A DNA stretch of 64,000 nt, from the NCBI GenBank assembly GCA_034638255.1, contig JAWPGT010000097.1:1-64000 (forward strand), written 5' to 3'. The notes under the pieces were generated by a model. The model made no database searches and was not told the origin of the DNA. It saw only the letters and a program-made list of their open reading frames with translations. Position 1 is the first letter of the stretch. Every line of letters begins with the position of its first letter. This document shows positions 3-53,444 of this stretch, piece by piece. This DNA comes from Coprinus comatus. Taxonomy: Eukaryota > Basidiomycota > Agaricomycetes > Agaricales > Agaricaceae. A program made the translations under genes and the position numbers.

Positions 3-1154
3 ATTGAACAATATCGGCAGCGAATCAAAGGAGATCCTGATCCAGAGGCACACTTTTTGTACGCAAAGTACCTCATTGAAGCAGCTAAGAAGATACGATC
101 AGGAGCTCAAGATCAACGGGCTGCGAAAAAATATAGCGAAATGCTGATAACAGAATCTCTCAAAGTCATCAAACGGTTGGCGACGCAGGGTGAAGCATAC
201 CATGAGGCCCAGTTCTTCCTTGCTAACTGTCATGGAACTGGAGCTTTGGGACTACAGGTCGACCATGAACGTGCTTACCACCTTTACTTGCAGGCAGCGA
301 AACAAAACCATGCTGCTGCTTCGTATCGTGTCGCAGTTTGTAATGAGATTGGTGCCGGCACAAGGAAGGAGTATGTACGTGCAGCCGCTTTCTATCGCAA
401 AGCAGCTTCACTGGGAGATACACCAGCTATGTACAAGCTGGGAATGATTCTGTTGCACGGCTCTCTTGACCAAGAAAAGAATCCTCGTGAAGCTATTACC
501 TGGCTCAAACGTGCAGCGGAACAAGCCGACGAAGATAACCCCCATGCTCTACATGAACTCGGGCTTCTCCATGAACAACCTACCTCGACATTGGTACCAT
601 ATGACCCCACTTATGCAAAGGCACTATTCACGCAAGCAGCGCAATTAGGCTACACACAATCACAGTACAAATTAGGTCAATGCTACGAATATGGGGCTTT
701 GGGTTGCCCCGTTGATCCTCGTAGATCCATAGCTTGGTACACAAAGGCAGCGGAAAAGGGAGATGCCGAGGCGGAATTAGCTCTTAGCGGGTGGTACCTG
801 ACTGGAAGTGAAGGTGTTCTCAAACAAAGTGATTCGGAAGCGTACCTTTGGGCTCGGCGGGCTGCCAACAAAGGACTGAGTAAGGCGGAGTACGCAGTTG
901 GCTACTATGCAGAAGTTGGAATTGGCATAAAACAAGATATCGAATTTGCCAAGAAATGGTATATGCGTGCAGCAGGTCAGTCGTCATCTGTCATTAAATT
1001 TCTTTGTTTTTCTCATTGTATACCTTTATATCTAGCACAAGGTAATAAACGTGCGATGAATCGCCTCACAGAGATGAAGCGTATGGGGAACAAAAGAGCT
1101 AACGTTGCTCGGCCAACAAGACAGCAGGCAAAGGATGAATGTGTAATTGGTTGA
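3..1154 (+). CDS. SKT5: SEL1-repeat protein, Skt5/Chs4-like chitin synthase activator (5' partial)
   Basis: The frame is open from base 3, so the start lies upstream of the window. The visible 363 residues are a run of SEL1 repeats (AxxYxxAAxxGxxxAxxxLG type, for example around the segments RAAAFYRKAASLGDTPAMYKLG and SIAWYTKAAEKGDAEAELALS). A 60-bp GT-AG intron at 976-1035 is a multiple of three, so it does not break the frame; removing it restores the repeat MRAAAQGNKRAMNRL. The protein ends in CVIG, a C-a-a-X prenylation box, which matches the Skt5/Chs4 family, where a lipidated SEL1 protein recruits chitin synthase to the membrane at the bud neck or septum. Family membership is strong; the specific chitin synthase role is inference. 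The next gene begins 62 bp downstream. Confidence 0.88.
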   Translation: MEQYRQRIKGDPDPEAHFLYAKYLIEAAKKIRSGAQDQRAAKKYSEMLITESLKVIKRLATQGEAYHEAQFFLANCHGTGALGLQVDHERAYHLYLQAAKQNHAAASYRVAVCNEIGAGTRKEYVRAAAFYRKAASLGDTPAMYKLGMILLHGSLDQEKNPREAITWLKRAAEQADEDNPHALHELGLLHEQPTSTLVPYDPTYAKALFTQAAQLGYTQSQYKLGQCYEYGALGCPVDPRRSIAWYTKAAEKGDAEAELALSGWYLTGSEGVLKQSDSEAYLWARRAANKGLSKAEYAVGYYAEVGIGIKQDIEFAKKWYMRAAGQSSSVIKFLCFSHCIPLYLAQGNKRAMNRLTEMKRMGNKRANVARPTRQQAKDECVIG

Positions 1155-2170: not shown

Positions 2171-2540
2171 TAGGGATTATTTCCGGGTCAAATTTTGGTG
2201 ACCTGTCCGGGTTCTGTTATGGGTTTTCCCACGGTACATGCAGGTCATGAAATATATTCTAATCTTCGGAATTTTACATGTATAAAATAGCAAAAGTAAT
2301 GTATTTTGTAATATGCACAGAAATACACTCATTGAGGCTATCTAACAGTGGTGGTTTGACATGAATCTGACATGTTTTGGTGAAGTTATGTGCTATTTAT
2401 TTTCTGTCAGGTCAACCTGTGACCTTCTGTGACGGGTCTGGGTCATGTCACAGGTCAGAAGATCGTGACCCTGACCCGAACCTGAAGGCTGACCCAACCC
2501 ACAAACCCATGGGTTGACCCCAGCCCAGTGACAATCCCTA
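2171..2540. mobile_element. Probable non-autonomous hAT-like element
   Basis: The left end starts TAGGGATTATTTCCGGG and the reverse complement of the right end starts TAGGGATTGTCACTGGG, an imperfect inverted repeat of the hAT type (compare TAGGG ends of the hAT element at 9719-22060). The 370-bp interior is non-coding, with GGTCAA/GACC-rich and ACCCATGGGT palindromic subterminal motifs. No 8-bp duplication is visible at the flanks (aatattgc against cctccacc), so either the ends were reshaped or this is a fragment. Confidence 0.45.
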
Positions 2541-2967
2541 CCTCCACCCCCACACCAACCTCTCCACAACTTCCCACACCACTGCCCATTACCCTGACCA
2601 TATCCTTGAATTCATTGCAAGAACAAGAAGTGGAGATAGTGAAGAGGTGTTGGGAGTCAGATGGAAAGGTGTCAGTGGTGGTAGTGAAGAAGAATGTGAA
2701 GATCACCATGGAGAACAGTGATGACAAAGTTATGGTTGTGGAAGGGGTGAAAGGCAAAATAGTAAGCAACAGGTAAGACATACTATATATATATGTTGAG
2801 ATGCCAATATACCCCAAACTAACCAAACATAGTCAGCCATATAGGGTGGTATGCACAAGGTGTGTTGGGTTAGGTGTAGTGTGCAAGGAGGGTGCAAGGC
2901 TGAACAGGCCTTGCAAGTGATGAGCTAAGAACAAAAAGGGGTATGTCAGAAAGGACACAGATGGAGA
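2528..2967 (+). pseudogene. Relic of the retrotransposon accessory Zn2Cys6-like ORF, part 1
   Basis: The open stretch 2528-2776 reads TPLPITLTISLNS..., then ESDGKVSVVVVKKNVKIT and MENSDDKVMVVEG, which aligns with the accessory ORF at 52542-53444 (TPLPIILSLSGNS, DSDGKISGTVTKKKSKT, MEDSNEEVELVEV). After an intron-like stretch, 2850-2930 reads VCTRCVGLGVVC, then nine residues, then PCK, followed by two TGA stops and AKNKKGY: the first four cysteines keep the C-x2-C-x6-C-x9-C spacing. Gypsy-1 then interrupts it at 2968. It is clearly broken. What this relic was part of is not preserved. Confidence 0.65.
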
Positions 2968-3284
2968 TGTAAGGGCAACTCATATCGGTAACAAATGGCC
3001 TGACAACTAGTGAGGAATCCAAAGTTATATTTGATTGGAAACACATTACAGAACAGATACAACATACCTAGCAAGGAATCCAAAGAGAAAGAGTTGGGGA
3101 TTCACTCATACAGGCTACACACAATATATACTACTATACAAACAGAGACACCAGCTATTGTCCAGAGGGATGTCGTAACATGGACAATGGAAACAATGGG
3201 GGATGAGTCACATGAGGGGGCAAGGGAGGATCAGTTGGTAGTCGGTGTGTCAGTGTGAGGGTCGGTGAGGAAGGTCCCCTTACA
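2968..3284 (-). repeat. Gypsy-1 3' LTR (shortened)
   Basis: Matches the 392-bp LTR at 9065-9456 but lacks an internal block of about 50 bp and a short tandem GTCAGTGTG-type segment near one end. Flanked by TSD GGAGA. Confidence 0.9.
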
Positions 3285-9052: not shown

Positions 9053-9062
9053 AACTCTTTCT
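9053..9062 (-). promoter_or_regulatory. Gypsy-1 primer-binding site (self-priming type)
   Basis: Minus-strand AGAAAGAGTT, 3 nt from the 5' LTR, is complementary to AACTCTTTCT inside that LTR (9183-9192), which lies about 35 nt downstream of a TATATATT box. This matches the Tf1-type arrangement where the mRNA 5' end primes itself. No tRNA match was recognised. Confidence 0.6.
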
Positions 9063-9064
9063 TC

Positions 9065-9456
9065 TGTAAGGGCAACTCACGTCGGCGACGAATGGCCCGA
9101 CAACTAGCGAGGAATCCAAAGTTATATTTGATCGGAAACATATTACAGAACAGATACAACATACCTAGTGAGGAATCCAAAGAGAAAGAGTTGGGGATTC
9201 ACTCACACAGGCTACACACAATATATACTACTATACAAACAGAGACGCCAGCTATTGTCCAGAGGGATGTCGTAACATGGACAATGGGAACAATGGGGGA
9301 CGAGTCACATGAGGGGGCAAGTCGTGAAAGCATGAAGTTGGGAGGTGTTCTGATGGAAGTCGGAACATTGGAGGATCGGTTGGTAGTTGGTGTGTCAGTG
9401 TAAGGGTCAGTGGTCAGTGTGTCGGTGTAAGGGTTGGTGAGGAAGGTCCCCTTACA
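9065..9456 (-). repeat. Gypsy-1 5' LTR
   Basis: 392 bp, TGTAAGGGCAAC...CCCCTTACA on the + strand. Flanked by the second GGAGA copy at 9457. The same LTR occurs alone at 11359-11750. Confidence 0.92.
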
Positions 9457-10078: not shown

Positions 10079-13000
10079 ATGTCTTTGGAAACTATACCAC
10101 TACCATCTACACAACAAACTGTTTCAAGTTCTACTCCTACAGCTATAGGAAAATGGAAATGTATCACCCCACTAATGCCTGATGGAACACCAGCTATTGT
10201 TCTAGGCTCACTGCTTCCCTCTAAAAAGAAAAAGGGCAACAACACTGAACCTACTGTGAGCATAACTACTCTAGGCCAGAACATACCTGAAGTTTCACCT
10301 CCAAACCAAACTTCTAATCCAAGTATTCCCTATGAAGCCATTACAGATACTAGTGATAACAAGTTTCTACATGTGGATACTGAGGTGGAAGAGTCAGAAG
10401 ATGAAGCTTCAGAGATTCAGGTCATTGGTAAAAAGAGTGTTGAGGTAATTGAGTCAGCTGAGGAAGAGCTTTGTGAGTTCTTATTCTTTTCATAAGATTA
10501 GAGGCTTACAAGTATACTATATTGTATTCTGGCAGCTTGTTTACAAAGAGAATGGACATCGTCAATATATGGATTCTTCCATAAAGTTCCTGTTATTGTA
10601 GAAACAGGAGTTCCCAAATGACAGTGCCATGACTTTCTTTGTATAAAAGAACATTGTTGAGGCCATTCATGTTACATTCAACAGTTTCTTGATAAAACTG
10701 ATTGTAAATTGACTGGAAACCTTCACAAGCATGTGAAGGCTTGTTGGGGAAAAGAAGTAGTTGAGAATGTTAGTAAAGAAGATCCCAATAAAGTATGAGA
10801 TGCACTTGGCCAGCCATTAAAAAAGACAGGAACATTAGATATGATGTTGAAGTCAACAAGTGGAAAGGTTGTATATTCTCTGAGTCCATTGAAAGATGCT
10901 GCCAGGTATGTTTTTAGTACTTTAAAATATAAAAAAAAACACCACTTACATGTTTCTAGAGTTGAAATCATTGTTTGGATTACCATTAATAAATGGCCCT
11001 TTAGTATTGTAAAGGACCAGAGTTTCCTTGTACTAATGAAAACTGGCCACCTAGATTTCTTCATTCCTTCACCAGATACCATTACCTGAGATATTTGCTG
11101 AGTTTTTGTACATATGCATCACCTTATAGCAACTGAACTTCAGGTAAGGTAACATAAAACAAAATCTTGATATGTACTTACATGTTATGTACAGAACTAC
11201 CCTGGTGATCTCAGCTTTTCCACTGATGCTTGGACTGCTACAAACAACCAAGCATTTGTGGCATTTATAGTCCATTACATTGTTGAAGGGGTTGTAGTAG
11301 CTTGACTTCTTGATCTTGTTGAGGTGGCACATTCTCACAGTGGGCAGAACCTAGCAGATGTAAGGGGACCTTCCTCACCGACCCTTACACCGACACACTG
11401 ACCACTGACCCTTACACTGACACACCAACTACCAACCGATCCTCCAATGTTCCGACTTCCATCAGAACACCTCCCAACTTCATGCTTTCACGACTTGCCC
11501 CCTCATGTGACTCGTCCCCCATTGTTCCCATTGTCCATGTTACGACATCCCTCTGGACAATAGCTGGCGTCTCTGTTTGTATAGTAGTATATATTGTGTG
11601 TAGCCTGTGCAAGTGAATCCCCAACTCTTTCTCTTTGGATTCCTCACTAGGTATGTTGTATCTGTTCTGTAATATGTTTCCGATCAAATATAACTTTGGA
11701 TTCCTTGCTAGTTGTCAGGCCGTTTGTCGCCAACGTGAGTCACCCTTACAGCAGAGGTATTCGTCACAATACTAGAGGATTATGGAATCAAAGATAAAGT
11801 AAGTAAATGAATGAGTATTACATCTCATAACTTACAATAAGTACAGATTCTTGCAGTAACTTGTGACAATGCATCAAATAATAACTCAATGCTAAAAGAG
11901 ATGGAATTATCAGTTGCATCTTTTAATGGATTGCTTAGCCACTCTCAGTGCTTCGTTCACATAATAAACCTAGTTGTTAAGAGTATTCTTCAACAATTCA
12001 ATACAAGGAAAGGGCAAGCTCGAGATAATACTCATGTTGTATTAATAAGTGACAATCTTGAAGATAATGATGAGGATGATGAGGGTGTAGATATGAATGC
12101 TCTTGGAAATGGGGAAGGTAATGAGTATGAAGAGCCAGATAACATGGAGGGATGGATAGATGAGTGAGAATTGATGACTGACATTGCAAGGGCAACACTT
12201 GACAAACAAACACTCCCAATAAGGAATGTTCTGTATAAGGTAGGTGCTCACTGCTTGCACATTCACTCTTTCCACTACTTATAATATCTCTTTCCCTCCC
12301 CCCTCTCTCTACTCTACCATAACTCACTTATCTAGATTTGATGAACTGCTATTGCCATCACTTGTTCATCAACAGGTCTCCTTCTGAAGTGGCATCAAAT
12401 TGTTTTACAAGTTGGACTTAAAGATCAGGTCATGCCACACAATGTTGTAACATGATAGAACTCAACATATCTAATGCTTGTGTTTGCTATTGATTATAAG
12501 GCAGCAGTAAAATCTATAACAAGTGATGTAGATCTGGGACTTTGTGAGTTTCAACTGAAGGCTGAGGAATGGGCTTTGGCTGAACAACTGCGAAATGCTT
12601 TAAAGGTATGTTGTCTTCATTTCCACCTTTGTCTTGAACCTCACAAATAATATATAATTCAATTTCATAGATATTCTATAATGCAACATTATTCTTTTCA
12701 TACAAGACTTCAAGCACATCATCTGTTATCCCACCTATGGATAAGATTGATGGCCTCCTGACAACAAGTATTGCTAGCCAGCAATTCCCAAATGCTATTT
12801 TAAGTGCTCTACAAGTTGGAAAGACCACTCTCAACCAGTACTATACTAAAACTGATGAATCAGAGGTCTACTGAATTTTGATGGGTAAGTTTAATGTTAA
12901 ACTTGAATCATGTTATGAATATAAACTCAAGGCCTCTCTAGTTCTCCATCCATCACATAAATTACAGTATTTCTGAAAGAAGAAGTGGGAGGAGAGCTGG

Positions 13001-13949: not shown

Positions 13950-14116
13950 GATAACATTGATTAGTTAGTATCAGATTTGTCTTGTTTGAGTACACAAAAA
14001 AATGGGACTTTGTCTCTTTCGAAAATGTGTCTGGTGTGACTTGTGACCCATGACCCTGGGTTACCCTTCAGTAACCCGTACCCATACCCAAGAAACCCAT
14101 ACCCATTAGTGACGGA

Positions 14117-14723
14117 TGTTAAATACTGAAAATACTGAGAAGGGTGACCCTTGGCTTCAGCATGTGTGCTGTGCCTCTGGAATTTGTACAAGGTTGATTT
14201 ACGAATTTCTGGGAGACTTCTGGCAGAGTTTCCGGAAGACCGGAAAAGTAAGAGTGCAGACGGTTGAGACGATATGGAGAGTTAAGAGTATATCAAGTTG
14301 ATTCTGAAACTGAGGAAATACAAACATAGCAGTGAACTATTTATACGAAATGCCATAACGGATAAAAAAGGTAATAAGGAATAACGGAAATCCGAATCAG
14401 AGAAGAAATACAAACGGAGGTAGATAAAGCGGAAGATGGAAAGTAATGGCATAATATTGGAGAATTAAGAAGCATAGGAAATGCATGGAAATGTCAAACT
14501 AACTGAATAGAATTGATAACCGAAGAATAAGCAAGATAAGGAAAACCCAGAATTTCCGGAGGATGGAAAAGTCCCTTTGAATAATTAATGAACAATGGAA
14601 ATCTGGAAATTAGGAAATTCAGGAAGATTGGAAATCCGGAGATTTGCTATCTAATCGGAATTGTGATATGTGAACTTGGCAGAATTCAGGGTTAGCGGTC
14701 ATGTGACGGGACGGAATATGACA
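14117..14723 (-). repeat. Gypsy-2 3' LTR
   Basis: 607 bp, differing from the 5' LTR at 13 sites, all within CpG dinucleotides (first at 14136). TSD ACGGA precedes it. Confidence 0.95.
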
Positions 14724-14809
14724 GTGTGTTCCCTTTATGGCTGAGCCACGAGGCCGAATTAGACTTTAGACTTCAGAAGTCCAGACATTTCCGGACATGT
14801 GTTCTTCCC

Positions 14810-14817
14810 TATAAAAA
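14810..14817 (+). promoter_or_regulatory. TATA box of the antisense accessory gene
   Basis: TATAAAAA lies 50 bp upstream of the ATG at 14860 and outside the LTR, so the accessory ORF seems to have its own promoter facing into the element. Confidence 0.6.
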
Positions 14818-14859
14818 CCCTGAAAATTTCCGTTTGCATCTTAACCCACTTTCTCTACC

Positions 14860-16092
14860 ATGCCTGCCAGTAACACCAATACTCGCACCACCACTACTCC
14901 TCGTGTCATGGACTTGGCACTCACCGCGGAGGAACTCGCGGAAGTTTGTCGTGCTCAACTTGCTCGTGCCTCGAACCCGACCCTGCATTCGACTTTGTTG
15001 CAGGTCGAAACTCCAGCATCAACAATTCCGGCGGCTGGAACTTCTGCTCCCAAACATCATCGGGAGTCTGATGGAACGACGGCTGCAACAGCCAGTCCCA
15101 AGAAGAAGGGAAAGGAAAAGGAGATTGAGTTGCTGGAGATTGAGGTAGTGGGAAATCCTGGCGACCCTGACAACGATGATGGGAGTAGTGGTCCAGAGGG
15201 TGGAGATTCGGAAGATGATGAGGATGAAGACAAAGAAGATGAGGAGGAGGAGGAGGTTGACGAGAAGGTTGAGAAAAAGGTTGTAAGGAAACAGGCTCAC
15301 TGGCAGGCCAAGGAACCCGCCAACGACCCACTCAGGCCTTGGACTGTGGGCAAAATTCCAGCGGAACCTTGTCTGTTGTGCCAGGCAGATGGAGTCAGGT
15401 GCGTTCAGGGCCCTCGGATCTATAGAGTTGAAGATCCCCGGCCATGTGACTACTGTGTGGAGAAGAAAGCAAAGTGCTCTCTCAGGGAGGAAATCACCAA
15501 GCCCCAGAAAACCGGAAAAGTCGCAGCCAAGAAACCCACCAAGAAAACCAAAACCGCTGCTCCTGTCGCTGGCCCATCCAAGTTGGCCAAGAAGAAGTCC
15601 ACCGAACTTCTGGTTGGTTTGCAGAAGCTGGCCCAGAAATTGTCGAAGAAACATATGAAGTTGGTGAAGTCCACAGAACTCATTGATGATGACAAAGTTC
15701 AAATTGTTGAACCGGCGGAAATCCGGGTAAGTGAATTTCTGATGAATTTCCTGACTTACTTGACAATTTCCTAGCCCGTTGTCCCAGTCGTCGCTCCTGC
15801 CCTGCCCCCTGTCCCACACAACAAGGTTGCGGAATTGCGTGAAGAATTCCGTGGCCTCTGTCAAGAAGTTTCTGCATTGACAGAAATCGTTTGGGAATTG
15901 CGGGGTCTGGTAGCAGGTGGGTTGGTGCAGATGGAGTTGTTACAAGAGAGTATTGTCTCCTTCCAAGGAGAACTTTGCTGAACCACCGAGGGAATTTCCG
16001 ATGCTGCAAATCGTATCATGGAGTTTGGACAGTATTTGGGTACCATCATGAGCAAGGCAGATGAAGAGGAAGATGAAGAAGAAGAAGAATAA
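14860..16092 (+). CDS. Retrotransposon accessory protein, Zn(II)2Cys6-like, antisense to pol
   Basis: Starts at ATG 14860 (context CTCTACCATGCC). Exon 1 is 14860-15726; a 48-bp GTAAGT...CTAG intron (15727-15774) joins exon 2 in phase. A TGA at 15979-15981 ends a 357-residue product; the frame continues to TAA 16090-16092 (394 codons), and the TGA is probably a mutated CGA. Features: LTAEELAEV near residue 22; HHRESDG plus a Lys-rich stretch and IELLEIEVV (residues 66-97); a long Asp/Glu tract (about 100-135); cysteines 171, 174, 181, 196, 199, 206, spaced C-x2-C-x6-C-x14-C-x2-C-x6-C as in Gal4-type zinc clusters; Lys-rich segments; and a heptad-like helix in exon 2 (VAELREEFRGLCQEVSALTE). A DNA-binding dimer is plausible but inferred. 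It could instead be a captured host gene; two homologous copies in the window argue it belongs to the element. Confidence 0.75.
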
Positions 16093-16383
16093 ACAGTCGG
16101 AAAAGTTGGAAGAGGAGAAGTTTTTTACATGTACTCGTAGTTCTTTGTTTCTACATGTAAAAATTTTAGTTTGTTTTTCTTGGTCGTTGAATGGAAAAGT
16201 AAGGAAAAGTTAACAAGTAATGACCAGCAAGAAGATAACTGGATCATTAATAAGTTGAATCAGAATTTTGGAAGAGTTAGAAAAATAATCAGAAGAATGA
16301 AACAACAATGAGACAAGTCAAAAAACACGGAAGTTCGGAAATGTTAAAGAAAATCGGAAAGGTGAAAACAAATTTCCAGAACA

Positions 16384-19300
16384 TTAAAGTTTAGAAAGAG
16401 GACCTGGTTTATCAGGATAAGAATGATGAAACACTTCAACAACTTCAACCGCATGAATAAGTTCCGTAGCTGGTAACCAACTGTACTCTTCGTCTGTTCT
16501 TTCATATCCAAGCCAAGCCACCTTATACTGTAATTTGCAAGTATGTTGGCAATCTAGTTTGGAGTCGACAATCTTGGAGATTTCATATTCCAGTTCACCG
16601 TCAATTTCCATGGGAGCAGGTGGAATTTCTATATGATTCTCGAAAGGATTAGTAGTACATGGTTCCAACATTGATACATGAAATACAGGATGAACGGAAC
16701 GGAATTCTTCTGGAAGTTGAAGTGTGAATGAATGCGTACCAGGTCAGGCAATGATCTTGTAAGGCCCTAAGTACTTTTCCGAGAACTTCTTGGTTGGTCG
16801 AGTTGTCCGGAAAAATTGAGCTTTAACAAAAACATTCTCTCTGACTTTAAAGTCAGGTGCAGGAAGTCTGCGTGAGTCTGCGGAAATTTGATAATGCTTC
16901 TGAGCAGCAATTATCTCATCCTTCAACATCACATGCAGTTCGTCAAGGTTAGTAGTAAATTCCCAAGCTCGAGCAGAGACAATATCTCTCTCCGGGTAAA
17001 CAGCAATATGCGGATGATATCCTTTGTTCGCAAAGAATGGAGACATACCAGTTGTTGCACTTGGAGCATTGTTATAAGCAAATTCCGTGAGAGGTAAAAG
17101 TTCCGACCAGTCGTCCTGCTGGTAATTGCAGTAAATTCGAATGTACTGTTCCAAAGTTTGATTAGTTCGTTCAGTTTGACCATCACCTTCAGGATGATAT
17201 CCGGAAGTGAAGTGTAACTTCATATCTAGTGCTTCTCTGAGTGACCAGAAAAAGTGAGACACAAATTCTGAGCCTCTGTCGGAAGTTACATGAGACGGAA
17301 CTCCATGCTTGGAAAAGACATGAATGACGAAAAGCCGAGCTAAACCTGCGGAGGTTATTGTAACATCAGTAGGTATGAATATTGCTTGTTTAGTTAGTCG
17401 GTCAACAATGACGAGAATAGAATCATAACCAGAAGAAGTAGGTAACTTCTCGATAAAATCTAAGGAAATTGAATCCCAAGGTCTAGGAGGAATAGGAAGT
17501 TGTTTTAAAAACCTGTAAGGCTTATGCCTCTGTGGTTTTGTGCGCATGCAAGTAACACAACTTTTGCAGAATACCTTTACATCTTCCCGAATTCCCGGCC
17601 AAGTATAATCTCGACAGATAAGTTCGAGAGTCTTGTTTTGACCATAGTGTCCGGAAATTGGGTGATCGTGATTATTCTGTAAAACCCGTAATCGGAGATC
17701 GTTAGCATTAGGTACATACATACGATCATCCAGGCGCAAAAATCCAACTGAGTCTTTAGACCATCTTCCTTGGGGATTTGTTAAATGATCAGCTATAGAT
17801 GTATCGGAAGTTAAAGAAGAAAGAATATCTGAATGAAGCTTTGAAATGTCCGTAACAATTCTGGCTCGCAGAACTGGAGTGAAAAGATAAGTAGCACAAA
17901 GAGAGGAAATTAGTTGCTCTTCTGTGAAGATAGGTCGGAAATTATGTGGGTTAACATCCTTATACCGCACTCCCCCCTCTTTAGGATAGACGTCCCATCG
18001 TCTAGTTAAAGCATTGGGCTTTGTACCCAATCTTCTGGGATGGAATTGAATTACCAGGTGAAATTGCGATAAGTATTCTGACCAACGAGCTTGTCGGCGA
18101 GTAAGGACTTTTGTTGTGCAGAAGTATTCCAGATTTTTATGGTCAGTAACAACATCAATAGGAAGAGCTGACCCTTCTAAATAATGTCGCCAAATCCAGA
18201 ATGCTTCAAAAATTGCCAAAAGTTCCTTGTTGTGAGTGTCATAATTCAACTCTGCCGCGGAAAAGGTGTGAGAGTGGAAAGCTACAGGATGAATTTCCGA
18301 GTTGGAAGTTACAATAGAAAGAATCGCTGCCAAAGCATAATCTGAAGCGTCAGTTTCAATAATGATTTGTGCATCGGGAATCCAGTGGGTCAGTATGGGT
18401 GCAGTAGTAAAAGCTTTTTTCAAGGCAATAAAAGCTGCCCTTGCTTCATCACCAAAATTCCAAGCCACACTTTTCCGAGTGAGCCGGGTAAGTGGAACGA
18501 CAAGGTCAGAATACCCAAAAATAAATCTCCAATAAAAATTCGCAAATCCCAGGAAAGATTGTACATCCTTCACCTTTTTCGGTTCAGGCCAATCCTGAAT
18601 GATTTGAACTTTATCATTAGCCATAGTGAGTCCACCAGAAGAAAGAACATAACCCAAATATTCCACGGAATTTGAATGAAACTCGCATTTGTCCGCACGA
18701 GCATACAAACCATTTTTCCAAAGACGTTTGAGGACTTCCTTGACATGTTTGCGATGTTGGGTGATATTGTCGGAATAGATGAGAATATCGTCCAAGTATA
18801 CGGTAACGCAAACATCTAGCATGTCAGCAAAAACTATGTTCATAAACCGTTGAAAAGCAGCAGGAGCATTAGTCAAACCAAAAGGCATAACCATCCACTC
18901 GTAAGATCCATAACGAGTATGGAAAGCTGTTTTCCATTCATCTCCAGGAGCAATACGTACCAAGTGGTAAGCATGCCGGAGATCTATCTTGGTATAAATC
19001 CGAGCTTTGCGAGGAGAATCAAGGAGATTGGAAATTAGGGGAAGTGGGTAACGATCTTTCTTTGTGATGCAATTGAGTCCACAGAAATCCACACAAAGAC
19101 GAAGTGATCCATCCTTTTTCTTGACAAAAAGGACAGGAGTACCATGAGAAGAAGAAGAAGTACGAATAAAACCACTAGCCAAATTATCGTCGATGAATTC
19201 CCGAAGGGTCTTGAGCTCAACCTTGGATAATGAATACATTACACCAATAGGCGGAGAAGCACCTTCTTCGAGTTCAATTTTGAGATCATAAGGACGATGA

Positions 19301-20110
19301 GGTGGAAGAGTTTCGGCTTTTGCTTTGCTGAAGACGTCGGCAAAGTCGTGGTATTCGGCAGGAACATTAGAGAGGTCGATGGGATCTGGAGTAGTGAGAG
19401 ATGAAGAAGCAGCTCGAACTTCAGAACGTAAGTCCAGAGTGAACTGCTGTGAACCAGGAGTGCGAATTGCCCTGGAAAAAGCAACAGCGTTGATTATGCT
19501 GATGTGAGGTTTTGGAATTTCGGAAGGTGTGACGAGCGAAGCAGAGGCAGAAGTAATGTTTGTTAGGATTTCTGGGGAATTTTCCGGAAAAGAGGATCGC
19601 AGCGATGTCGGAAGAGCAAGATTCTCTGGAGTTTTGGTACAGAAATTGATATGGCCACTAACCCAGTCAATCAACAGATTGTAGCGGGAGAGCCAATTGA
19701 ATCCAAGAACCATAGCACAAGTAGAGTTGAGCCTCGTCACATAAAAGTCAAACAGCATAGATTCACCACTCGGAAAAGTAATTGGCATACATACAGATTC
19801 AGTAATGTACGAATTTGAAGAGCCATCGAACAACCTAAGTTCTACTGGAGAAACTGAAGAAGTGGAAAGGGAAAATTTTTGGACAAAAGAAGAATCAATG
19901 AATGAATGAGTAGAACCACTATCAACAAGAGCCAGCCAAGGAGATTTGTGAGACAGAGAAATTGAATTGGAAAAAAGTGAAACATGTAAAGAATCAGGAG
20001 AAGAAAGAGCAGAGGCATTCAGTCGGACAATAGGAATGGCACAGCTGGGCTGAGCGCAAACCCCAGGCTGTACCGGAAATTGCTGGGGTTTGCCCTCTAG
20101 TTTTCCGAAG
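16384..20110 (-). pseudogene. Gypsy-2 pol: protease, RT, RNase H, integrase, chromodomain (one stop)
   Basis: One open frame from the gag overlap (about 20110) to 16744, then after a single TGA (KIIA*PGTHSF, where CGA would give arginine) to the stop at 16384. Order: protease LALVDSGSTHSFID (about 19910), RT LRLCVDFCGLNCI and VYLDDILIYSD (18780-19100), RNase H ETDASDYALAAILS and TDHKNLEYF, integrase HH-CC (HDHPISGHYGQNK...CKSCVTC, about 17540-17680), DDE region LDFIEKLP, TSDRGSEFVS and SGYHPEGDGQTERTNQTLEQY, then a chromodomain LEYEISKIVDSKLD...YKVAWLGYERTDEEYSW (16420-16600). Apart from the one stop it looks catalytically complete. It is reached from gag by a -1 shift. Confidence 0.93.
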
Positions 20111-21352
20111 CCTCGGAATTCCGAGGAGCAGAAGTTTGAGGATTATTCCCGGCTGCAACATTTGCGGGAGTGGTAACACAACGCCCACGACTGGAGTTTG
20201 GAACACCTCCATGTCCTCGGTTTGAATTGGAGGGACCAGCAACGGCATTACCAGTGATCGACCTCCTAGGACATTCACCGACTCTATGACCAGCCGTACC
20301 ACAGAGGAGACACAAGTTGTTGTCCATTCTATGTTGACACTCTTGATCAGTCAAACGTCCATTACTTCCGAGGACATTTGCGAGAGGGTTACTGGGACGA
20401 GATGGTGCTTGTTGACGGAAATTGGTATTGTTAGGACGAGGGTTGTTATTGGGACGGGTGTTATTGCTATTGTTGGGGCGGTTCTGACGACGGGAATTCT
20501 GGGAAGAGTTGGGAGCCTGACGATTTTCCTGACGAAATTCTGGGTGATTTTCCGGACGATTGCTGGAATTGTTAGATGGTTTGGAGTTACGATTTCTTTC
20601 ATGATGGTGTTCCCAGTAATGATTGTCGAGGAGGCGAGCCTGCTGACGCATGGCATTTAATGTAGAAGGTTTCCCATTAGGAAGCATAGCCATTTGGTCC
20701 TGAATACGATTCGGAAGACCATCATAATAATAGTCCACCAAAATATCATCAGGCCAGTTAAGAACTCCGGCAACCCTGTTGAAAGCCACATTGTAAGTTG
20801 CAATCTCCGAGCTGGCTGCCATTGATAAAGTTCTGATTTCCGACTTAGCTTCCGCTACCAAATCCACATTTCCGAAATTTGATCGCAATTCCTCTTCAAA
20901 TGTATCCCAATCACTAAACCAATCTAATTCATCCCAATCCTCTGTGTGGGTCATGATAGTCTCAAACCATTGGCTTGCTGGCCCCATCAAGAATGTAAGG
21001 CAAAATCCGACTTTGTCCTTGTTAGTGGCAAACTGCTGGTTATTAGTGTCGAAATAAAGATGGATATGATGAAGAAAGCAGCAAATTCCCGAGGGTTTTC
21101 CCCGGAGAATGTAGGAGGTTCGTGAGTGTGACGAGGAACATGGGGCACATTGTTGTTATTGTTGTTGTTGAGGGCATCTGTAAGGCGATTGATAATTTCT
21201 AACAACCTATCCTGTCCCTGTGGTCCAGCTCCTCCTGCACCTGCATCATCATCATCATCATCTTCTTCACCCCCAGCATTGTTGTTGTTGTAGGGAGGAA
21301 GATTTTCCGGCATAGCGGCTGCTCTAGAATTGTTTGTTGTACAGGGTGGCAT
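20097..21352 (-). pseudogene. Gypsy-2 gag (one frameshift)
   Basis: Starts MPPCTTNNSRAAAMPENLPP only 29 nt inside the 5' LTR. Asp-rich, Asn-rich and PTFSGENPREFAAFF segments follow, then a one-base shift near 21070-21085; the capsid continues in the next frame (HHIHLYFDTNNQQFATNK, GPASQWFETIMTH, DWDTFEEELRSNFG). An RP/N-rich linker leads to the knuckle CLLCGTAGHRVGEC (C-x2-C-x4-H-x4-C). It ends SEASEN at TAG 20097. Confidence 0.9.
20100..20106 (-). promoter_or_regulatory. Putative -1 frameshift site at the gag stop of gypsy-2
   Basis: Minus-strand GGAAAAC directly before the gag TAG; pol is open in the -1 frame across this point. The relative gypsy-D has the canonical heptamer GGGAAAC in the same place, so this is a one-base variant. 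Confidence 0.5.
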
Positions 21353-21367
21353 ACAAATCCGGAATTT

Positions 21368-21378
21368 AGTTTCAGAAT
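21368..21378 (-). promoter_or_regulatory. Gypsy-2 primer-binding site (self-priming type)
   Basis: Minus-strand ATTCTGAAACT, two bases from the 5' LTR, pairs with AGTTTCAGAAT inside the LTR (21565-21575). That copy lies about 33 nt after a GTATAAATAG box (21601-21610), so it would be the very start of the mRNA, as in Tf1 self-priming. Confidence 0.65.
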
Positions 21379-21380
21379 AC

Positions 21381-21987
21381 TGTTAAATACTGAAAATACC
21401 GAGAAGGGTGACCCTTGGCTTCAGCGTGTGTGCTGTGCCTCCGGAATTTGTACAAGGTCAATTTACGAATTTCCGGGAGACTTCTGGCAGAGTTTCCGGA
21501 AGACCGGAAAAGTAAGAGTGCAGACGGTTGAGACGATACGGAGAGTTAAGAGTATATCAAGTCAATTCTGAAACTGAGGAAATACAAACATAGCAGTGAA
21601 CTATTTATACGAAATGCCATAATGGATAAAAAAGGTAATAAGGAATAACGGAAATCCGAATCAGAGAAGAAATACAAACGGAGGTAGATAAAGCGGAAGA
21701 TGGAAAGTAATGGCATAATATTGGAGAATTAAGAAGCATAGGAAATGCATGGAAATGTCAAACTAACTGAATAGAATTGATAACCGAAGAATAAGCAAGA
21801 TAAGGAAAACCCAGAATTTCCGGAGGACGGAAAAGTCCCTTTGAATAATTAATGAACAATGGAAATCTGGAAATTAGGAAATTCAGGAAGATTGGAAATC
21901 CAGAGATTTGCTATCTAATCAGAATTGTGATATGTGAACTTGGCAGAATTCAGGGTTAGCAGTCATGTGACGGGACAGAATATGACA
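21381..21987 (-). repeat. Gypsy-2 5' LTR
   Basis: 607 bp, TGTTAAATACTG...ATATGACA on the + strand, with a TATA box read on minus at 21601-21610. TSD ACGGA follows. Confidence 0.95.
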
Positions 21988-22060
21988 ACGGATATGGGTA
22001 GGCTGGGGTAGGGTAGGGGTACTGAATTTCTCACCCAGGGATTACCCCTGCTGATCCCTA

Positions 22061-33799: not shown

Positions 33800-34624
33800 A
33801 TGGCTTCCTCATCACCAAACTTTGTCAAACTCAACAGTACCAACTACTCTACCTGGGTAGGCGAAATGGAAGCGTGGTTCCGCGCTTCAGGGCTCTGGAA
33901 AGTCGTTTCAGGTGCCTACTCCAAGCCTACCCCTTCCCCACCTGCTGTTTCTTCACCAACACCTGCCACCACCACAGAGTCAACCACTACCTCTTCCCCT
34001 TCTGCACCAACCCCTGCCTCTCATTCTGAGGCTCTAGATGCTTGGGAAGCCAAGGCTGACAAGGCTGCTGGCTGGTTGTTCCTCATGGTTGAGCCAGAGC
34101 AGAGGATTCATTTCAATGGGATTCAGGATGATCCATGTAAGATGTGGAAGAGTTTGGAGGGGGTGCATTTGCAGAAGAGGCCTGGGGCAAGGTTCAACAG
34201 CTATGACGACCTTTTTAGCATTAGGAAGGGGGATGAGGAGTCTTTGCAGTCTTTGATCAACAGGGTGGAGGAATGTATGAAGAAAATCAAAGATCTTCGG
34301 CCACAGGGCTTCTCTCTGGCCTCCCTGGATGAAGAACTCGCTTCCATGGCTCTTATTAGAGCCCTCCCATCTGAGGATTACTCCTCCTTCACCTCTCACC
34401 TCCTGCTCCTTGACAAACTTGACAAGGCCACCATTCATCAGGCATTCATCAGTGAGGAAATTCAACGTCGTAGAAGGGCAGTAGACCTTCCCTCCCATGC
34501 TTCTGCTTTTTCAGCAAGGTCCCCCAGCCCTCCTCCTCATCTCAGAAATGCGATTTTTGTAGCAGGTCTGGTCATGTTATGGCCAAATGCTGGCAGTATG
34601 AGAAGGCTCAGAAGAAAGCTGTAG
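33800..34624 (+). CDS. Copia-B gag (capsid part)
   Basis: ATG 33800, MASSSPNFVKLNSTNYSTWVGEM, the usual UBN2/copia gag opening (KLNxxNYxxWxxxM), then ATTTES-rich linker, WLFLMVEPEQRIHFN, MWKSLEGVHLQKRPGARFNSYDDLFSIRKG, ALPSEDYSSFTSHLL. The zinc knuckle CDFCSRSGHVMAKC is not in this frame but in the following one: a one-base shift in the C run near 34518-34522 separates them. In a functional element both would be one polyprotein. Confidence 0.88.
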   Translation: MASSSPNFVKLNSTNYSTWVGEMEAWFRASGLWKVVSGAYSKPTPSPPAVSSPTPATTTESTTTSSPSAPTPASHSEALDAWEAKADKAAGWLFLMVEPEQRIHFNGIQDDPCKMWKSLEGVHLQKRPGARFNSYDDLFSIRKGDEESLQSLINRVEECMKKIKDLRPQGFSLASLDEELASMALIRALPSEDYSSFTSHLLLLDKLDKATIHQAFISEEIQRRRRAVDLPSHASAFSARSPSPPPHLRNAIFVAGLVMLWPNAGSMRRLRRKL

Positions 34625-37600
34625 AAAACGCTCAAAAGCGTTCCAATTCGCGTCAAACTCAGGCCAACAAGGCCTCAGAAGCTCCTACACCTTCTCCCAC
34701 CGCCTCAATCGCTGAATTGGCCACCTGCATCAAGGAATTTGCTGGCAATGCAAGTTGTCTCTCTTCCTCTTCTTCATCACCTCTTCAGCTGGATGCTGAC
34801 TTTCATTGGCTTGCAGATACTGGGGCCACTTCTCATATGACCCCACACCTTCACTGGTTCAAGACCTACTCCCCAGCTCGCATTCCTGTCCGCTTAGCAG
34901 ACAATTCAGTTGTTTTTGCAGTTGGAATGGGTTCAGTGATGTTTCAGCCATTGTTGAGAGGAAAGAAGGGGAGAGTGGTCGAGTTTTCTAGAGTTTTACA
35001 TATTCCTGCCTTAAGAAACAATCTCCTTGCTTGTTTGTACCTTACTCGCCATAAGGGCTTTAATATCAACATATCTTCGCACTCTCTGGCCTTCAGGAAG
35101 GATAGGAAGACTCTATTTACTGCTACCATCACTGAATCCAACAATGCCTTGCTTAATGGCACTGTGGTCGCTTCAGAGACCGCATTTTCGGCCTCTACAC
35201 TTCCCCTTGACCTTTCCCTGTGGCACAGACGCCTTATACACCATAATCTTGCTGATTTGAAGAAGCTAATCAGTCAGGAACTTGTTACTGGCCTTTCCCT
35301 AGTCTCTGGAACGCTCCCTGACGCGATTTGTGAGCCCTGCCTCGCTGGGAAGATGCATTTAGCCTCATTCCCTCCTTCTACACACCATACTCGCTCCCCA
35401 CTTGATCTGGTGCACTCAGATCTTCATGGACCGCTTCCTACAGCCACAGCTCAAGGCTACAAGTACTGGGTGACGTTTATAGACGATTCTACGCGTTTTC
35501 GGGCTGTATACCTGCTCAAGGCCAAGTCAGAAGCCTTTGAAGCGTTCAAAGCATACAAATCATGGGCTGAGAACCAGCTGGGGACCAAGATCAAGGCTCT
35601 ACAGGATGATAAAGGGGGTGAATACATGTCTAAAGCGTTCATTTCCTTCACAACTCAGTGTGGCATTGAAAGGAGACATTCTACTCGCAATAGACCACAG
35701 CAGAATGGCCTAGCAGAGCACTCCAATCGAACTATGGGTGAGAGAATCACCACAATGCTCTCAGAGTCAGGTTTACCTCCATCTTTCTGGGGTGAATGCT
35801 TGGCTGCAATGGTTCATGTTTGGAATTTCCTTCCCACCTCACCTCTACCCAACACTACACCTTATGAGGCCTTCTATAAGCGAAAACCCGACGTTTCTCA
35901 CCTTAGAGTATGGGGCTGCACTGCCTATGTCTATATTCAGAAGGATAAAAGGAAATCTCTGGAGCCTCACATGGAAAAATGCGTTTTTCTGGGATATCCC
36001 ACTGGCTACAAGGGTTGGAAGTTCTACAATCCAACTACAAGGAAGGTTATCATCTCTGAGACTGCTCAGTTTGATGAGAGATGGTTCCCTGGGCTGTCAA
36101 AAGCGAAAATGGATGCTATTCCTGACTTTGGCTTGTCTGAAACACCATCTCCACCCTCTACTTCGCTTTCTTTGCCCTCTAGCTCCTCTATTCCTCCTCC
36201 TGACGATGTTTCAGCTTCTGAAGATGAGGGGGGTAGTGTATCACATCCTGTAGTTGCTCCTGCAGCTCTAATCGTTCCTCCTGCTCTCCCTGCAGTCGCT
36301 TTACCTCCTGTGGCTCCAATTCCTCTTCAAGAACCTGTTCCATCTCCATCTCCATCACCAATACTGTCACCAAAGCACTCACCTCCATCTACACCTCCAA
36401 TGCCTCCATCTTCTTCTTTGCCTCCTCCTACCACTCCTGTCCACCAGCAACCTCCCTCAGCTGAACCACCAGCTAGAAGACGAGGTACTCGCATCAGAAC
36501 AGCTCCCTACAACTGGTGGGATGCCAAAGAACAGCTAAAACGTCGTCCTATAGCTAGACTACCAGTTGAACCAGTTCCAGTAGCTCAGAACAATGGGAAT
36601 GATGATGAAGAAGATGATGATGAGCTTGAAGAGTTGGCTCTCTACATGAATGATGAAGATTTTCGGGTGGTAGAGTTTGCAGGAGCTGTTACTGGTGGTG
36701 AGCCTGGTTCATTTAAGGCTGCTATGGAGTCCTGTGCATCCGAAGATTGGAAAGAAGCCATGGATAAGGAGTTTGGGATCCTGGAGGCTAATGGGACATG
36801 GGAACTCGTTCCTTTGCCTTCAGGACAGAAGGCTATCAAGTCTGGATGGGTCTACAAGGTGAAAGAGAACCCAGATGGCTCTATAGAGCGCTACAAAGCT
36901 CGCATTGTGGCCAAGGGATATGCACAGAGGCCTGGTTATGATTATACTGAGGTTTTTGCTCCTACTTTTCGGCCTGCTTCTCTGAGACCCATTGTTGCTC
37001 TGGCTGCTAAAGAGGGCTACAAACTGCGCTCTTTGGATATCTCATCTGCTTTCACCTATGGAGACCTGGAGGAAGAGATTTACATGAAGCAACCTGAAGG
37101 ATACCACCGGGGCACTCCAAACATGGTTTTTAGGCTCAGGAAGTCGCTCTATGGCCTCAAGCAAGCTGCCAGGCAGTGGAACAAGAAGCTACACTCGATT
37201 TTCATCTCTCTTGGTTACACCAGACTCCAATCTGACAGTTCTATTTATCTCTATTCCAAAGGTCCAGTCAAGGTCATTGTTCCTGTGTTTATTGATGACA
37301 TTACTCTTGCTTCGAAGGATGACAAGGCCATGGATGACACAGTCAAGGAACTCTCAGCTCACTTCAAACTTCGTGACCTTGGTCCAACATCCTGGCTTCT
37401 GGCTGTCAAGGTTGAACAAGACCTAGATCATCATTCTATCTCTCTCAGTCAAGAGAAATACACCAAGGACCTTCTAGAACGCTTCCAGATGTCTGATTGC
37501 AAGCCTGTGAAGACCCCACTAGCGCCTGGACTTGATCTTTCTACAGTTGTGGTCACTTCAGATGATCAACTCAAGATGAAAGATGTTCCTTACCTCAGTG

Positions 37601-45720: not shown

Positions 45721-46328
45721 TGTTAAATACTGAAAATACCGAGAGGGGTGACCCTTGGCTTCAGTGTGTGTGCTGCACCTCCGGAATTTGTACAAGGTCG
45801 ATTTATGAATTTCCGGGAGACTTCCGGCAGAGTTTCCAGAAGACTGGAAAAGTAAGAGTGCAGACGGTTGAGACGATATGGAGAGTTAAGAGTATATCAA
45901 GTCGATTCTGAAACTGAGGAAATACAAACATAGCAGTGAACTATTTATACGAAATGCTGTAACAGATAAAAAAGGTAATAAGGAATAACGGAAATCCAAA
46001 TCAGAGAAGAAATACAAACGGAGGTAGATAAAACGGAAGATGGAAAGTAATGGCATAATATTGGAGAATTAAGAAGCATAGGAAACGCATGGAAATGCCA
46101 AACTAAACTGAATAGAATTGATAACCAAAGAATAAGCAAGATAAGAAAAACCTAGAATTTCCAGAGGACAGAAAAGTCCCTTTGAATAATTAATGAACAA
46201 TGGAAATCTGGAAATTAGGAAATTCAGGAAGATCGGAAATCCGGAGATTTGCTATCTAATCGGAATTGTGATATGTGAACTTGGCAGAATTCAGGGTTAG
46301 CGGTCATGTGACGGAACGGAATATAACA
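45721..46328 (-). repeat. Solo LTR, gypsy-2 family
   Basis: 608 bp, TGTTAAATACTG...ATATAACA. Perfect TSD GCCTT at 45716-45720 and 46329-46333. It keeps CG at a site where the two gypsy-2 LTRs have TG and CA, supporting CG as ancestral. Confidence 0.93.
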
Positions 46329-51200: not shown

Positions 51201-51483
51201 TGAACCATTTACTACTAACCCTTTTCCAAACTGTTCAGATCCTCCACCACCACCAATTGAAATTGAAGGCGATGTTGAGTACAAAATCTCCCAAATCATC
51301 GATTCCAAGATTGACTGACATCAGGCCTGCAAACTACTCTACAAAGTCACTTGGTTGGGATATGAGGATACAGATGAGGAGTTTTCTTGGTTACTGGTGA
51401 ATGAACTTAAGCATGCTGTTGAATTGGTTGATGTGTTCCATCATTTTTATCCCTACCTTCTGGGGCCTCTATCTTCTCTTTAA
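48220..51483 (+). pseudogene. Gypsy-D pol, main part (RT, RNase H, integrase, chromodomain)
   Basis: Resumes after copia-[67 protein letters not shown] and [12 protein letters not shown] (YLDN in place of YLDD), RNase H TNTSDYALAAIISL and [11 protein letters not shown], integrase HHDHPLAGHYGQNKTLELIH...CVTCMQSK, SGYHPEGDGQT, then chromodomain VEYKISQIIDSKID*H...YKVTWLGYEDTDEEFSW. About ten stops; several stand where gypsy-2 has arginine (CGA to TGA). A 21-bp tandem duplication lies near 48675-48720. Confidence 0.9.
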
Positions 51484-51941
51484 TCATCATTCCCAATCAC
51501 CAATTCTAGGCTAGGCCCAACTTCAACTTCTTCTGACTCCTGTTTATCTTGGCCAATTGTGTTCTGATATTACTACTCTCTCTAATCTTGTATTGTACTC
51601 TCTCCTTGTGCTATTACCTTCAACCTATTGGTCACCACGCATATATACCTTATTTGTTCCATCTGACTGTCGGTCTTAACTTGATGTATTTTCTGTTCTT
51701 CTTTCTGATAGTTGCTGACTCATTTCAAACTTATCATCACCCTAATCTTTCTTTTCTTTCACACTTGGGACAGGAGGAAATAATTTAATACTTGTAGTAA
51801 AACAAAATACTACAAGCTACAAGTATTAAATGGAAGACACTACTCATCCTCCTCTCCATCAGCATCCTCTTCTTCCTTGTCATCATGTTACTCTTGTCAC
51901 ATCACCCTCAGGTTTCAGTTTACCTCCTGGAGCTCCATCAT
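51484..51941. other. Gypsy-D region between pol and the accessory ORF
   Basis: Mostly non-coding and T-rich; includes an ACTTGTAGT...ACTACAAGT hairpin near 51790-51820. No gene seen. Confidence 0.5.
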
Positions 51942-52470
51942 TGTTACGGTTTCATATTTATCACGACTAATCATTAGAACTAATGATGGACGATAGTGTA
52001 CTTTCTCTTACTCGTTTCACATAGCCTTGGACTACTGTTTCGTATAGCCTCGGACTAGTACTTTCTATGGACTTCCACTTGTCGTTCCACTCACTGTTTC
52101 AGTTGTAGATAGTTTCACTCTCCTGTCTCACATGTATCAAACATAGCCTACAACCTGTACTCGTAGTTGTATAAATACATGGACAGCGACAGAGATTAAG
52201 CTTCAGCTTAATACTCGTTGTCTCTCTCGTTCTACTTGCTATCATTGCTCCGCCTCTACTTTGATAACCCCAGAACTCGGAGTCAGCTCTAACTCTTGCA
52301 CAAACGGCTTACTAGTAAGGAACACCTGTGATCTACAGTCTGAGTACTGTGGAGGTCGTCCCCCGAAAGTGGTCTCAGTAAGAGTAGACGTTCTCCTCCT
52401 ACGAGCACCTTGAAGAGGTCCATCGTAGCATCGTCTATACCGAAACGGAGGTATAGGCAAGATCATAACA
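51942..52470 (+). repeat. Solo LTR, family H
   Basis: TGTTACGGTTTCAT...GATCATAACA. Perfect TSD ATCAT at 51937-51941 and 52471-52475. Confidence 0.93.
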
Positions 52471-52541
52471 ATCATCATGCCACTAAGGGCCCTCTTCTGC
52501 CAACCCCAGTGCTCCTTAGCCATCTTGCACCACACCAGGTG

Positions 52542-53444
52542 TTAACTCTCTTCATGTTCATCCCTCCTCACCATGCTTTCCAACATCCTGTTTACTGCCA
52601 AATTTAGTTGGCTGATCACAGCTGACTCACAGGCAGGCTGGCAAGCAGTCACTGATTGTGATGGACCAGCCACAGATGTTGTTGGCAAGTGGAAAACATT
52701 GACTGATGGGTATTTCTCACCACTGAAGTCCAACATCCATGAGCTGGATGACATTGCAGCCAATGAAGCCTTCTTAGGGACTGGCCTCCTTTTCACCTCC
52801 TTCACATCCTCCTTTTTCTTTCCCTTTTCCTTCTTGTTCACCATTCCGACTCCCCAAATGACACACTTCTTCTTGTCCTTGGCACAATGTTTACATAGAT
52901 GAGTTGAGTCAGCACCCTCCTCGCAAGGCAAACCCATTGACTGACACTGCTCACACACCACAGTCCTGTACTGAGTACATTCTGTGAGTTTGGGGTGATG
53001 AGGCACATTGACAAATACTTGCCTGACATTGGCAGCCCTATTCACCTCTACTAACTCTACCTCCTCATTGCTATCCTCCATGAATGTCTTTGACTTCTTC
53101 TTTGTCACTGTCCCTGAGATCTTCCCATCAGAATCCCTCCTTCATTTGACAGTCTCCCCGCCTTGCCCATCTCCTTGTGAAACTTGTGCTGAGTTGCCTG
53201 ACAGACTCAGTATGATGGGCAGAGGAGTCCAGATTGGGAATGGGGCCAGGACTGGGGTACTTGCCACCACCAGTGACTAAATAACAGAAGGTGCTGGTGC
53301 CACTGCTGCTGGTGCTAGTGCCAAGACAGGTGTCACTGTGGGGGCTGCTTGAGTGGCATGCTGAGCTTGCAAAGCCAGGAACAGACTGGTAAGCTCCTTA
53401 TCAGTGAGCTTTGACAAGGTGTCAAGGGCATTGGGGTTGGACAT
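52542..53444 (-). pseudogene. Gypsy-D antisense accessory ORF, Zn(II)2Cys6-like
   Basis: ATG at 53442-53444 opens MSNPNALDTLSKLTDKELTS, similar to the N-terminal LTAEELAEV region of the gypsy-2 accessory protein. Two stops follow (TAG after APSVI, TGA after GETVK), then the frame is open from about 53150 to 52542: RDSDGKISGTVTKKKSKT, EEVELVEV, a cysteine cluster CEQCQSMGLPC, nine residues, CKHCAKDKKKC (C-x2-C-x6-C-x9-C-x2-C-x6-C, exact Gal4-type spacing), Lys-rich KKEKGKKKEDVKEVKRRP, and a helical C-terminal SQLNLAVNRMLESMVRRDE. It lies between pol and the 3' LTR in antisense, the same place as in gypsy-2. A TTAAAAG box lies 30-40 bp upstream of the ATG. Confidence 0.72.

Follow-up and report, generated by a model that had tools for sequence, protein, structure and literature searches.

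A Ty3/gypsy chromovirus in the window (the whole 64,000-nt stretch of Coprinus comatus DNA analysed here) carries an extra gene, antisense to pol and next to the 3′ LTR, whose relatives recur in two element families of the same genome. Sequence comparisons indicate that this antisense gene encodes a Zn2Cys6-like protein under purifying selection. In the sister lineage, called family B, old gene types are intermixed on near-uniform backbones and recombination has occurred inside the gene. With moderate confidence, we read it as an accessory chromovirus gene that probably encodes a nuclear zinc-cluster self-regulator and that behaves in family B as a hypervariable, exchanged cassette. Three things are unusual: the domain can be recognised, the intron is antisense and, most of all, the gene is hypervariable although constrained, while the backbone around it is uniform.

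The chromovirus of the window and its antisense gene

The element lies on the minus strand and spans 14117-21987. The same 5-bp target-site duplication, ACGGA, stands on both outer flanks (14112..14116 and 21988..21992), and the 607-bp 3′ LTR (14117..14723, −), which has TG...CA ends, was 97.5% identical in an ungapped comparison to the 607-bp 5′ LTR (21381..21987, −). Adjoining the 3′ LTR is a probable polypurine tract (14729..14736, −), which in pol sense reads AAAGGGAA. The gag gene was found at 20097..20990 (−) (Retrotrans_gag in Pfam, E 4.8e-9) and has a zinc-knuckle-like end (zf-CCHC_2, E 0.0079, 16.4 bits against a cut-off of 27), and pol with RT, RNase H and integrase matches in Pfam was found at 16744..19833 (−). 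The 3′ end of pol, including the chromodomain, lies downstream of a stop codon in the window copy (16405..16743, −); SH3_Tf2-1 matched there with E 3.5e-7, and Chromo matched just below its Pfam cut-off (E 4.4e-5, 23.8 bits against 25.1). In a family-B copy (L021), Chromo scored above the cut-off (34.6 bits against 25.1). With gag, the order RT-RNase H-integrase and a C-terminal chromodomain, the window element is a Ty3/gypsy chromovirus, and it and its relatives are called family A here. An LTR-like family-A stretch was also seen at 45721-46020 (+), with 94% identity to bases 1-300 of the window LTR, and the exon-1 search of the genome described below gave no further match on the window contig.

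The antisense gene runs on the plus strand between pol and the 3′ LTR, which is the placement named aORF-3R in plant elements, and its ATG at 14860 is 136 bp from the edge of the 3′ LTR. A TATA-like box, TATAAAA, precedes it (14810..14816, +) and is shared by seven of eight family-A copies, the remaining copy having TATAAGA. Exon 1 (14860..15726, +) has 289 codons and contains an acidic tract (approximately residues 102-136; 15163..15267, +) followed by the Zn2Cys6-like cluster (residues 171-206; 15370..15477, +), whose cysteines at residues 171, 174, 181, 196, 199 and 206 are spaced exactly C-x2-C-x6-C-x14-C-x2-C-x6-C. It is followed by a predicted 48-nt in-phase intron, GTAAGT...TCCTAG, antisense to the element RNA (15727..15774, +), and the first stop of the unspliced antisense frame sits within this intron. 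Exon 2 is open at 15775..15978 (+) up to a premature in-frame TGA (15979..15981, +), so the spliced frame of the window copy has 357 codons; the remainder behind the TGA (15982..16092, +) would encode an acidic tail and ends, 37 codons further on, at the TAA at 16090. An earlier note made from these letters had described an ORF inside a gypsy element, opposite to pol and near the 3′ LTR, with its own TATA box, an acidic tract, a 48-bp in-phase intron and cysteines at Gal4-type spacing, and all of these features are present in the sequence. Its statement that the ORF runs to 16092 has to be corrected for the window copy, because the TGA, which it overlooked, breaks the frame. When the whole window was read in all six frames, the six-cysteine pattern occurred at two sites only, this ORF and a second antisense gene at 52955(−), and it occurred in none of 20 mononucleotide-shuffled windows.

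Family-A copies and the zinc cluster-like protein

The genome (35.7 Mb, 134 contigs) was searched in six frames with exon 1 as the query. This search gave 11 matches, eight of them near-full and the other three pieces of two decayed copies, and none was a host gene. With 300 bases of the LTR as the query for judging LTR presence, six near-full copies were found between two LTRs and one beside one LTR, and the eighth had a partial LTR adjoining it and a full LTR at the far end. The intron length of 48 nt and the splice sites GTAAGT...TCCTAG were conserved in all eight. The whole spliced frame was open in four of the eight; among the other four, two shared the late stop codon (one of them the window copy), a third shifts frame where exon 1 ends, and the fourth had several stops. 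An intron antisense to a mobile RNA stays unspliced when that RNA is copied, which is the logic of retrotransposition indicator genes, and the presence of the intron in every family-A copy fits this because such an intron escapes removal. The antisense intron would then be a natural copy of the indicator-gene trick. For the most diverged copy, the intron had 2/48 differences and the exons 116/861 (Fisher p 0.075), and we do not claim that the intron is better conserved than the exons.

Differences among the closer family-A copies were mostly of the CpG-decay type, and about half of those of the most diverged copy were. In comparisons with the most diverged copy dN/dS was 0.25-0.34, and in the other pairs, which have few differences, it was 0.15-0.69. 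In the L013-L018 pair, third positions accounted for 31 of 54 non-CpG differences (p 4e-4). Together with the family-B values given below (0.07-0.32), this bears out the purifying selection across copies that the earlier note's reading of the gene calls for.

All six cysteines were kept in 12 of 12 aligned rows from both families (alignment A3, which leaves decayed copies outside), so the cysteine conservation on which that reading also depends is found; family-B copy C76, outside A3, has lost the sixth cysteine. The linker between the two cysteine halves is x14 in family A and x8 in family B, and compared with the usual Zn2Cys6 linker of approximately 5-12 residues, x14 is long. Single sequences did not reach the Pfam curated cut-off of PF00172 (Zn_clus, 21 bits; 12-13 bits for two examples, the window sequence having 12), and the protein is therefore called Zn2Cys6-like. 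PF00172 matched three of eight family-B members at E<=1 (best E 0.064), a PDB search with the single window sequence gave no match, and an NCBIfam search gave nothing relevant. When a joint profile of the 12 rows of families A and B was searched against the PDB, however, the Zn2Cys6 domain of Leu3 was matched with E 3.3e-5 and 1e-4, and the sole other match at E<=1 was an unrelated factor at E 0.54. The earlier claim of a Zn2Cys6-type coding sequence is thus supported by homology to a proven member of the class, visible with the family profile and not with single sequences.

A structure model of window exon 1 was built from an alignment of two sequences, including the window's family-B fragment, and was poor overall (pLDDT 51, pTM 0.22). 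It has short helices at the cysteines (172-177 and 197-202), in a block with pLDDT 55-84, and a long helix at 243-273; in this poor model the two short helices sit where Zn2Cys6 domains have helices. A Foldseek search of 350,542 chains with the model returned 12 matches at E<=10, all 12 of them Zn2Cys6 DNA-binding domains, with a best E of 0.61 and none significant alone. They carry the names Leu3, Put3, Gal4 and AlcR, as well as 1cld, which is labelled only as a DNA-binding protein and which we take to be Lac9. With fungal Leu3, Gal4 and Put3 the present protein shares the six-cysteine spacing, the profile match to Leu3 and the weak fold matches; it differs from them in scoring below the Pfam cut-off and in being encoded antisense in an LTR element. 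Compared by eye with Gal4, its basic residues are mainly in the second cysteine half, whereas those of Gal4 are in the first. Basic stretches follow the cluster, and acidic stretches precede it or form the tail. No homologues beyond the own genome were found in protein databases (searched with the window exon and with the family-B alignment A2) or in viral contigs, collections that may contain few fungi.

The sister lineage and probable exchange of gene types

Searches with pol gave two further lineages. One, family B, had mostly 70-79% identity in pol, with lower values for decayed pieces; the other, a third gypsy family, had about 37-42%. Family B also has an antisense ORF between pol and the 3′ LTR, of approximately 343-352 codons and intronless, with the cluster C-x2-C-x6-C-x8-C-x2-C-x6-C; a basic ESDG-type motif is shared. 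A genome search with the family-B gene gave 36 matches, and the 30 loci fetched represent about 22 distinct elements by position. The gene was antisense to the pol end in all 23 loci (18 elements) having a pol end, and a family-B pol end and/or LTR adjoined it in 28 of 30 loci; the remaining two (L047 and L049) are decayed fragments with neither in the fetched flank. The gene is carried by the eight near-full family-A copies and the 30 family-B loci, and the earlier idea that the gene is carried by the element holds for its relatives in this genome, which sit in LTR elements, save for those two decayed fragments. Profile comparison of A with B (hhalign) aligned 41 cluster columns with a probability of 94.7% and E 5.7e-8, and synonymous sites in pol are near saturation between the families. 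Because the two genes are homologous in this comparison, the antisense gene probably predates the A/B split, unless it was exchanged between the families. No antisense zinc-cluster gene was seen in the two 3′ ends read from the third family (L026 and L027).

The second antisense gene of the window (52467..53441, −) belongs to a decayed family-B element at 48316-54150, with pol matches at 48316-51120 (+). It is of type II (see below) and its six-cysteine cluster is intact, with three stops in the match. Another family-B-type antisense gene fragment lies at 2522-2977 (+), nearest to the C33 type (65% over 136 residues) and with neither a family-B pol end nor an LTR within the fetched flank, and a similar fragment was seen elsewhere in the genome (G000:C5:29720-30166). 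At G000:C120:19099-20676, a family-B antisense gene is interrupted by an insert of approximately 558 bases, and both gene parts are listed in one open frame of 540 codons; part of the insert frame also begins an open frame of L027 and looks copia-like by eye.

Seven family-B elements (C50, C92, C33, C22, C42, C61 and C76) were compared pairwise in the antisense gene and in a pol piece, and the near-copies of C50 (C2, C82, C78 and C82b) were excluded from the 21 pairs. In 21 of 21 pairs pS was far higher in the antisense gene (0.36-0.79) than in pol (0.06-0.13). The corresponding dS values for gene and pol were 0.48 vs 0.09 for C50-C92, 1.29 vs 0.06 for C50-C33 and 1.92 vs 0.12 for C50-C22. The pairing is less sure for C42, because its pol piece is 6.4 kb from its antisense gene, though a pol end adjoins the gene. 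The dN/dS of the antisense gene was 0.07-0.32 in 19/21 pairs with computable dS, and the gene is therefore constrained as a protein. Between the near-copies C50 and C2 gene pS was 0.005, which means that there is no cassette effect among close copies.

Sliding identity showed that the divergent island starts behind the pol end and stops within the leader. Measured per 100 bases, C50-C22 identity was 0.37-0.68 inside the island vs 0.88-0.97 outside, and C50-C92 identity was 0.77-0.93 inside. In the compared pairs, the 3′ LTRs were 88-96% identical, and pol end and LTR together 88-97%. Gag with the adjoining pol was 96.4-98.5% identical between C50 and C33 or C22, and gag as a partner co-varying with the gene type was rejected for the compared elements. 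The antisense genes of C33 and C22 were 56% identical, while the two elements agreed at 94.2% of 2978 bases taken from LTR, gag and pol; within each element, the two LTRs were 98.6% (C33) and 97.1% (C22) identical. The protein types differ strongly, with 47% identity.

C76 and C42 are mosaic within the gene, and the breakpoint lies in the zinc-cluster codons (three triplets, 0/2000 permutations); the remaining three of the six recombination triplets were weak or null (20, 1049 and 280 of 2000 permutations). By our own assignment there are two main gene types, of which type II comprises C22, C42, C61, C25, C14 and C97b. LTR identity to C50 was 79% for C25 and 92% for C22, yet the genes of both are type II. 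An LTR tree of 15 elements (five of type II) had four type changes vs a shuffled mean of 4.4 and rejected a single type II clade (AU p 0.0018), and a pol-end tree of 18 elements had five type changes (AU p 0.072, not significant). Co-variation of the LTR with the gene type was not seen in family B. The LTR is uniform across the types, and a type-specific DNA site for each type is therefore unlikely.

Zn2Cys6 proteins bind CGG, and words containing CGG are over-represented in the LTRs of both families. In LTR plus leader of one family-A copy, CCGGA was the most over-represented of 512 five-letter words (16 vs 2.0 expected), and in that of the window copy it occurred 9 times vs 0.8 expected. For family B, CCGAC was seen 13, 15 and 10 times vs 1.6, 1.6 and 1.1 expected in three copies. 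Across LTR and pol, the words are CCGGA and CGGAA in family A and CCGAC in family B and the third family. The enrichment in the third family was found in L026 and a region of L023, where no antisense zinc-cluster gene was seen. CGG words as iterated self-binding sites were dropped: they give no specific support, because they are also enriched in pol and in this third gypsy family. The window's copia element (33800-38256, +; gag and pol frames open) did not have over-represented CGG words.

Possible function, alternatives and known systems

Under our preferred reading, the TATA-like promoter in the 136-bp leader beside the LTR would drive the antisense gene. The family-A transcript would carry the 48-nt intron, which retrotransposition would leave in place, since the RNA through which the element moves is that of the opposite strand. 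The predicted protein layout is an N-terminal helix, a basic ESDG segment, an acidic stretch, the Zn2Cys6-like cluster, a lysine-rich arm and a further helix. Most likely the protein would enter the nucleus and bind element or chromatin DNA as a dimer, and most likely it would regulate how its own element is transcribed or how many copies there are; it may, as the earlier note inferred, control the LTR promoter or host silencing. In family B, old allelic types, each under purifying selection, have probably been moved between near-identical gag-pol-LTR backbones by recombination, as would be expected of copy-choice during reverse transcription.

By analogy with the immunity regions of phages, the way the cassette behaves points to selection that favours a change of type. 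Somewhat unlikely, and offered only tentatively, is the stronger idea that the gene determines the immunity or compatibility of the retrotransposon, much as the exchangeable repressor region does in temperate phages: each type would control elements of its own type, and an element that acquired another type by recombination would escape this control and spread. Specificity would then be expected in protein-protein contacts (N- and C-terminal helices), because the LTR is constant across types, and a type-specific dimer contact would be the simplest route to having types. If true, this idea would account for old, very different alleles staying alive on one homogeneous gag-pol-LTR backbone, and should the types prove to be mutually insulated, transposons would have their own equivalent of the immunity groups of phages.

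The pattern in family B could also have arisen by homogenisation of the backbone only, by sweeps or gene conversion of pol and LTR, with diverged genes left behind and no selection for diversity. We regard this as quite possible, since recombination needs identity and the flanks are about 88-97% identical while the island is not. But recombination does happen inside the island, at the conserved cluster, and two old types persist with near and far LTRs, where drift alone would tend to lose them. Another alternative is that the protein works in the nucleus against silencing by the host, be it through DNA methylation, heterochromatin or RNAi; the diversity of the cassette would then reflect an arms race between element and host. 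Most differences among the closer family-A copies, and about half of those of the most diverged copy, are of the CpG-decay type, so that the host probably methylates the elements, and the chromodomain of the element and the very different protein types (47% identity) would fit as well. An arms race, however, usually leaves positively selected sites, and the low family-B dN/dS (19/21 computable pairs) means that amino-acid change is not in excess, so we consider this explanation unlikely.

The gene might also be a captured host transcription-factor gene that rides along as a passive passenger. Fungal Zn2Cys6 genes are host genes, and PF00172 has 17 matches in the genome; the antisense genes of families A and B are not among them, and the gene is present in two anciently split element families and strongly constrained, so a passenger without an element role appears most improbable. 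Also very unlikely in our view is that the antisense RNA acts instead of the protein, by pairing with element RNA and feeding RNAi or blocking reverse transcription. The antisense position and the conserved TATA-like box would suit such a role, and similar roles of antisense retroelement transcripts have been discussed (PMC7264820). Against it, the excess at third positions, dN/dS mostly of 0.1-0.3 and the cysteines kept in every aligned row indicate selection on the protein, and between C50 and C22 the protein frame is kept where nucleotide identity drops to 0.37-0.68 per 100 bases.

In plants, antisense ORFs in this position form an established class whose function a 2020 review describes as open; examples of the plant aORF-3R are Grande gene23, RIRE2, Retand and PvRetro13 (PMC7264820). 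The class has no clear similarity to other proteins, apart from SMC and transposase_28 domains in two cases, and for the Grande antisense gene a nuclear protein and an own promoter have been reported (PMC7264820). The present gene shares place and orientation with the plant ORFs, which are present in most copies (PMC7264820). It differs from them in the Zn2Cys6-like cluster, the fungal host, the antisense intron of family A and the hypervariable exchanged cassette of family B.

In fungi, brtn of Boty-like retrotransposons was reportedly treated by Zhao et al. 2011 in Virology. Boty of Botrytis is cited as a fungal antisense-ORF case (PMC7264820), and brtn of Boty in Botrytis cinerea resembles our gene in being an extra gene carried antisense by a fungal gypsy element that has a chromodomain (PMC8365987, PMC4227169). 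The passages on brtn there mention neither a zinc cluster nor cassette exchange, and brtn is set beside the present gene by description only (PMC8365987, PMC4227169). The earlier note's view that no fungal chromovirus of this design had been described was therefore too broad as regards an antisense extra gene in a fungal gypsy element, to judge from these same passages on brtn in Boty (PMC8365987, PMC4227169, PMC7264820). Our searches of the open-access literature turned up no paper that describes a zinc-cluster antisense gene or cassette exchange in a fungal gypsy element.

Further away, HBZ of HTLV-1 is likewise an antisense, 3′-LTR-proximal gene for a DNA-binding-type protein, namely a bZIP protein that inhibits activation of the sense LTR by Tax (PMC3185765). 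It is bZIP and not a zinc cluster, and the comparison is of how the two may work, with no kinship claimed. Orchid gypsy elements with an AlkB-type extra ORF share a proposed role in element-host control and differ in having an RNA demethylase domain (PMC9289625). The present antisense accessory gene has a recognisable domain of DNA-binding type, its purifying selection was measured, and near-identical elements that differ mainly in this gene offer a natural experiment; its function is thus directly testable.

Two other features of the window were recorded. An open frame at 57-1154 (+) has Sel1 repeats (E 3.4e-53) and is the only host-type gene among the six window ORFs scanned with Pfam, and a 397-nt inverted repeat, 97% complementary, has its arms at 9060-9456 and 11359-11755, 1902 nt apart.
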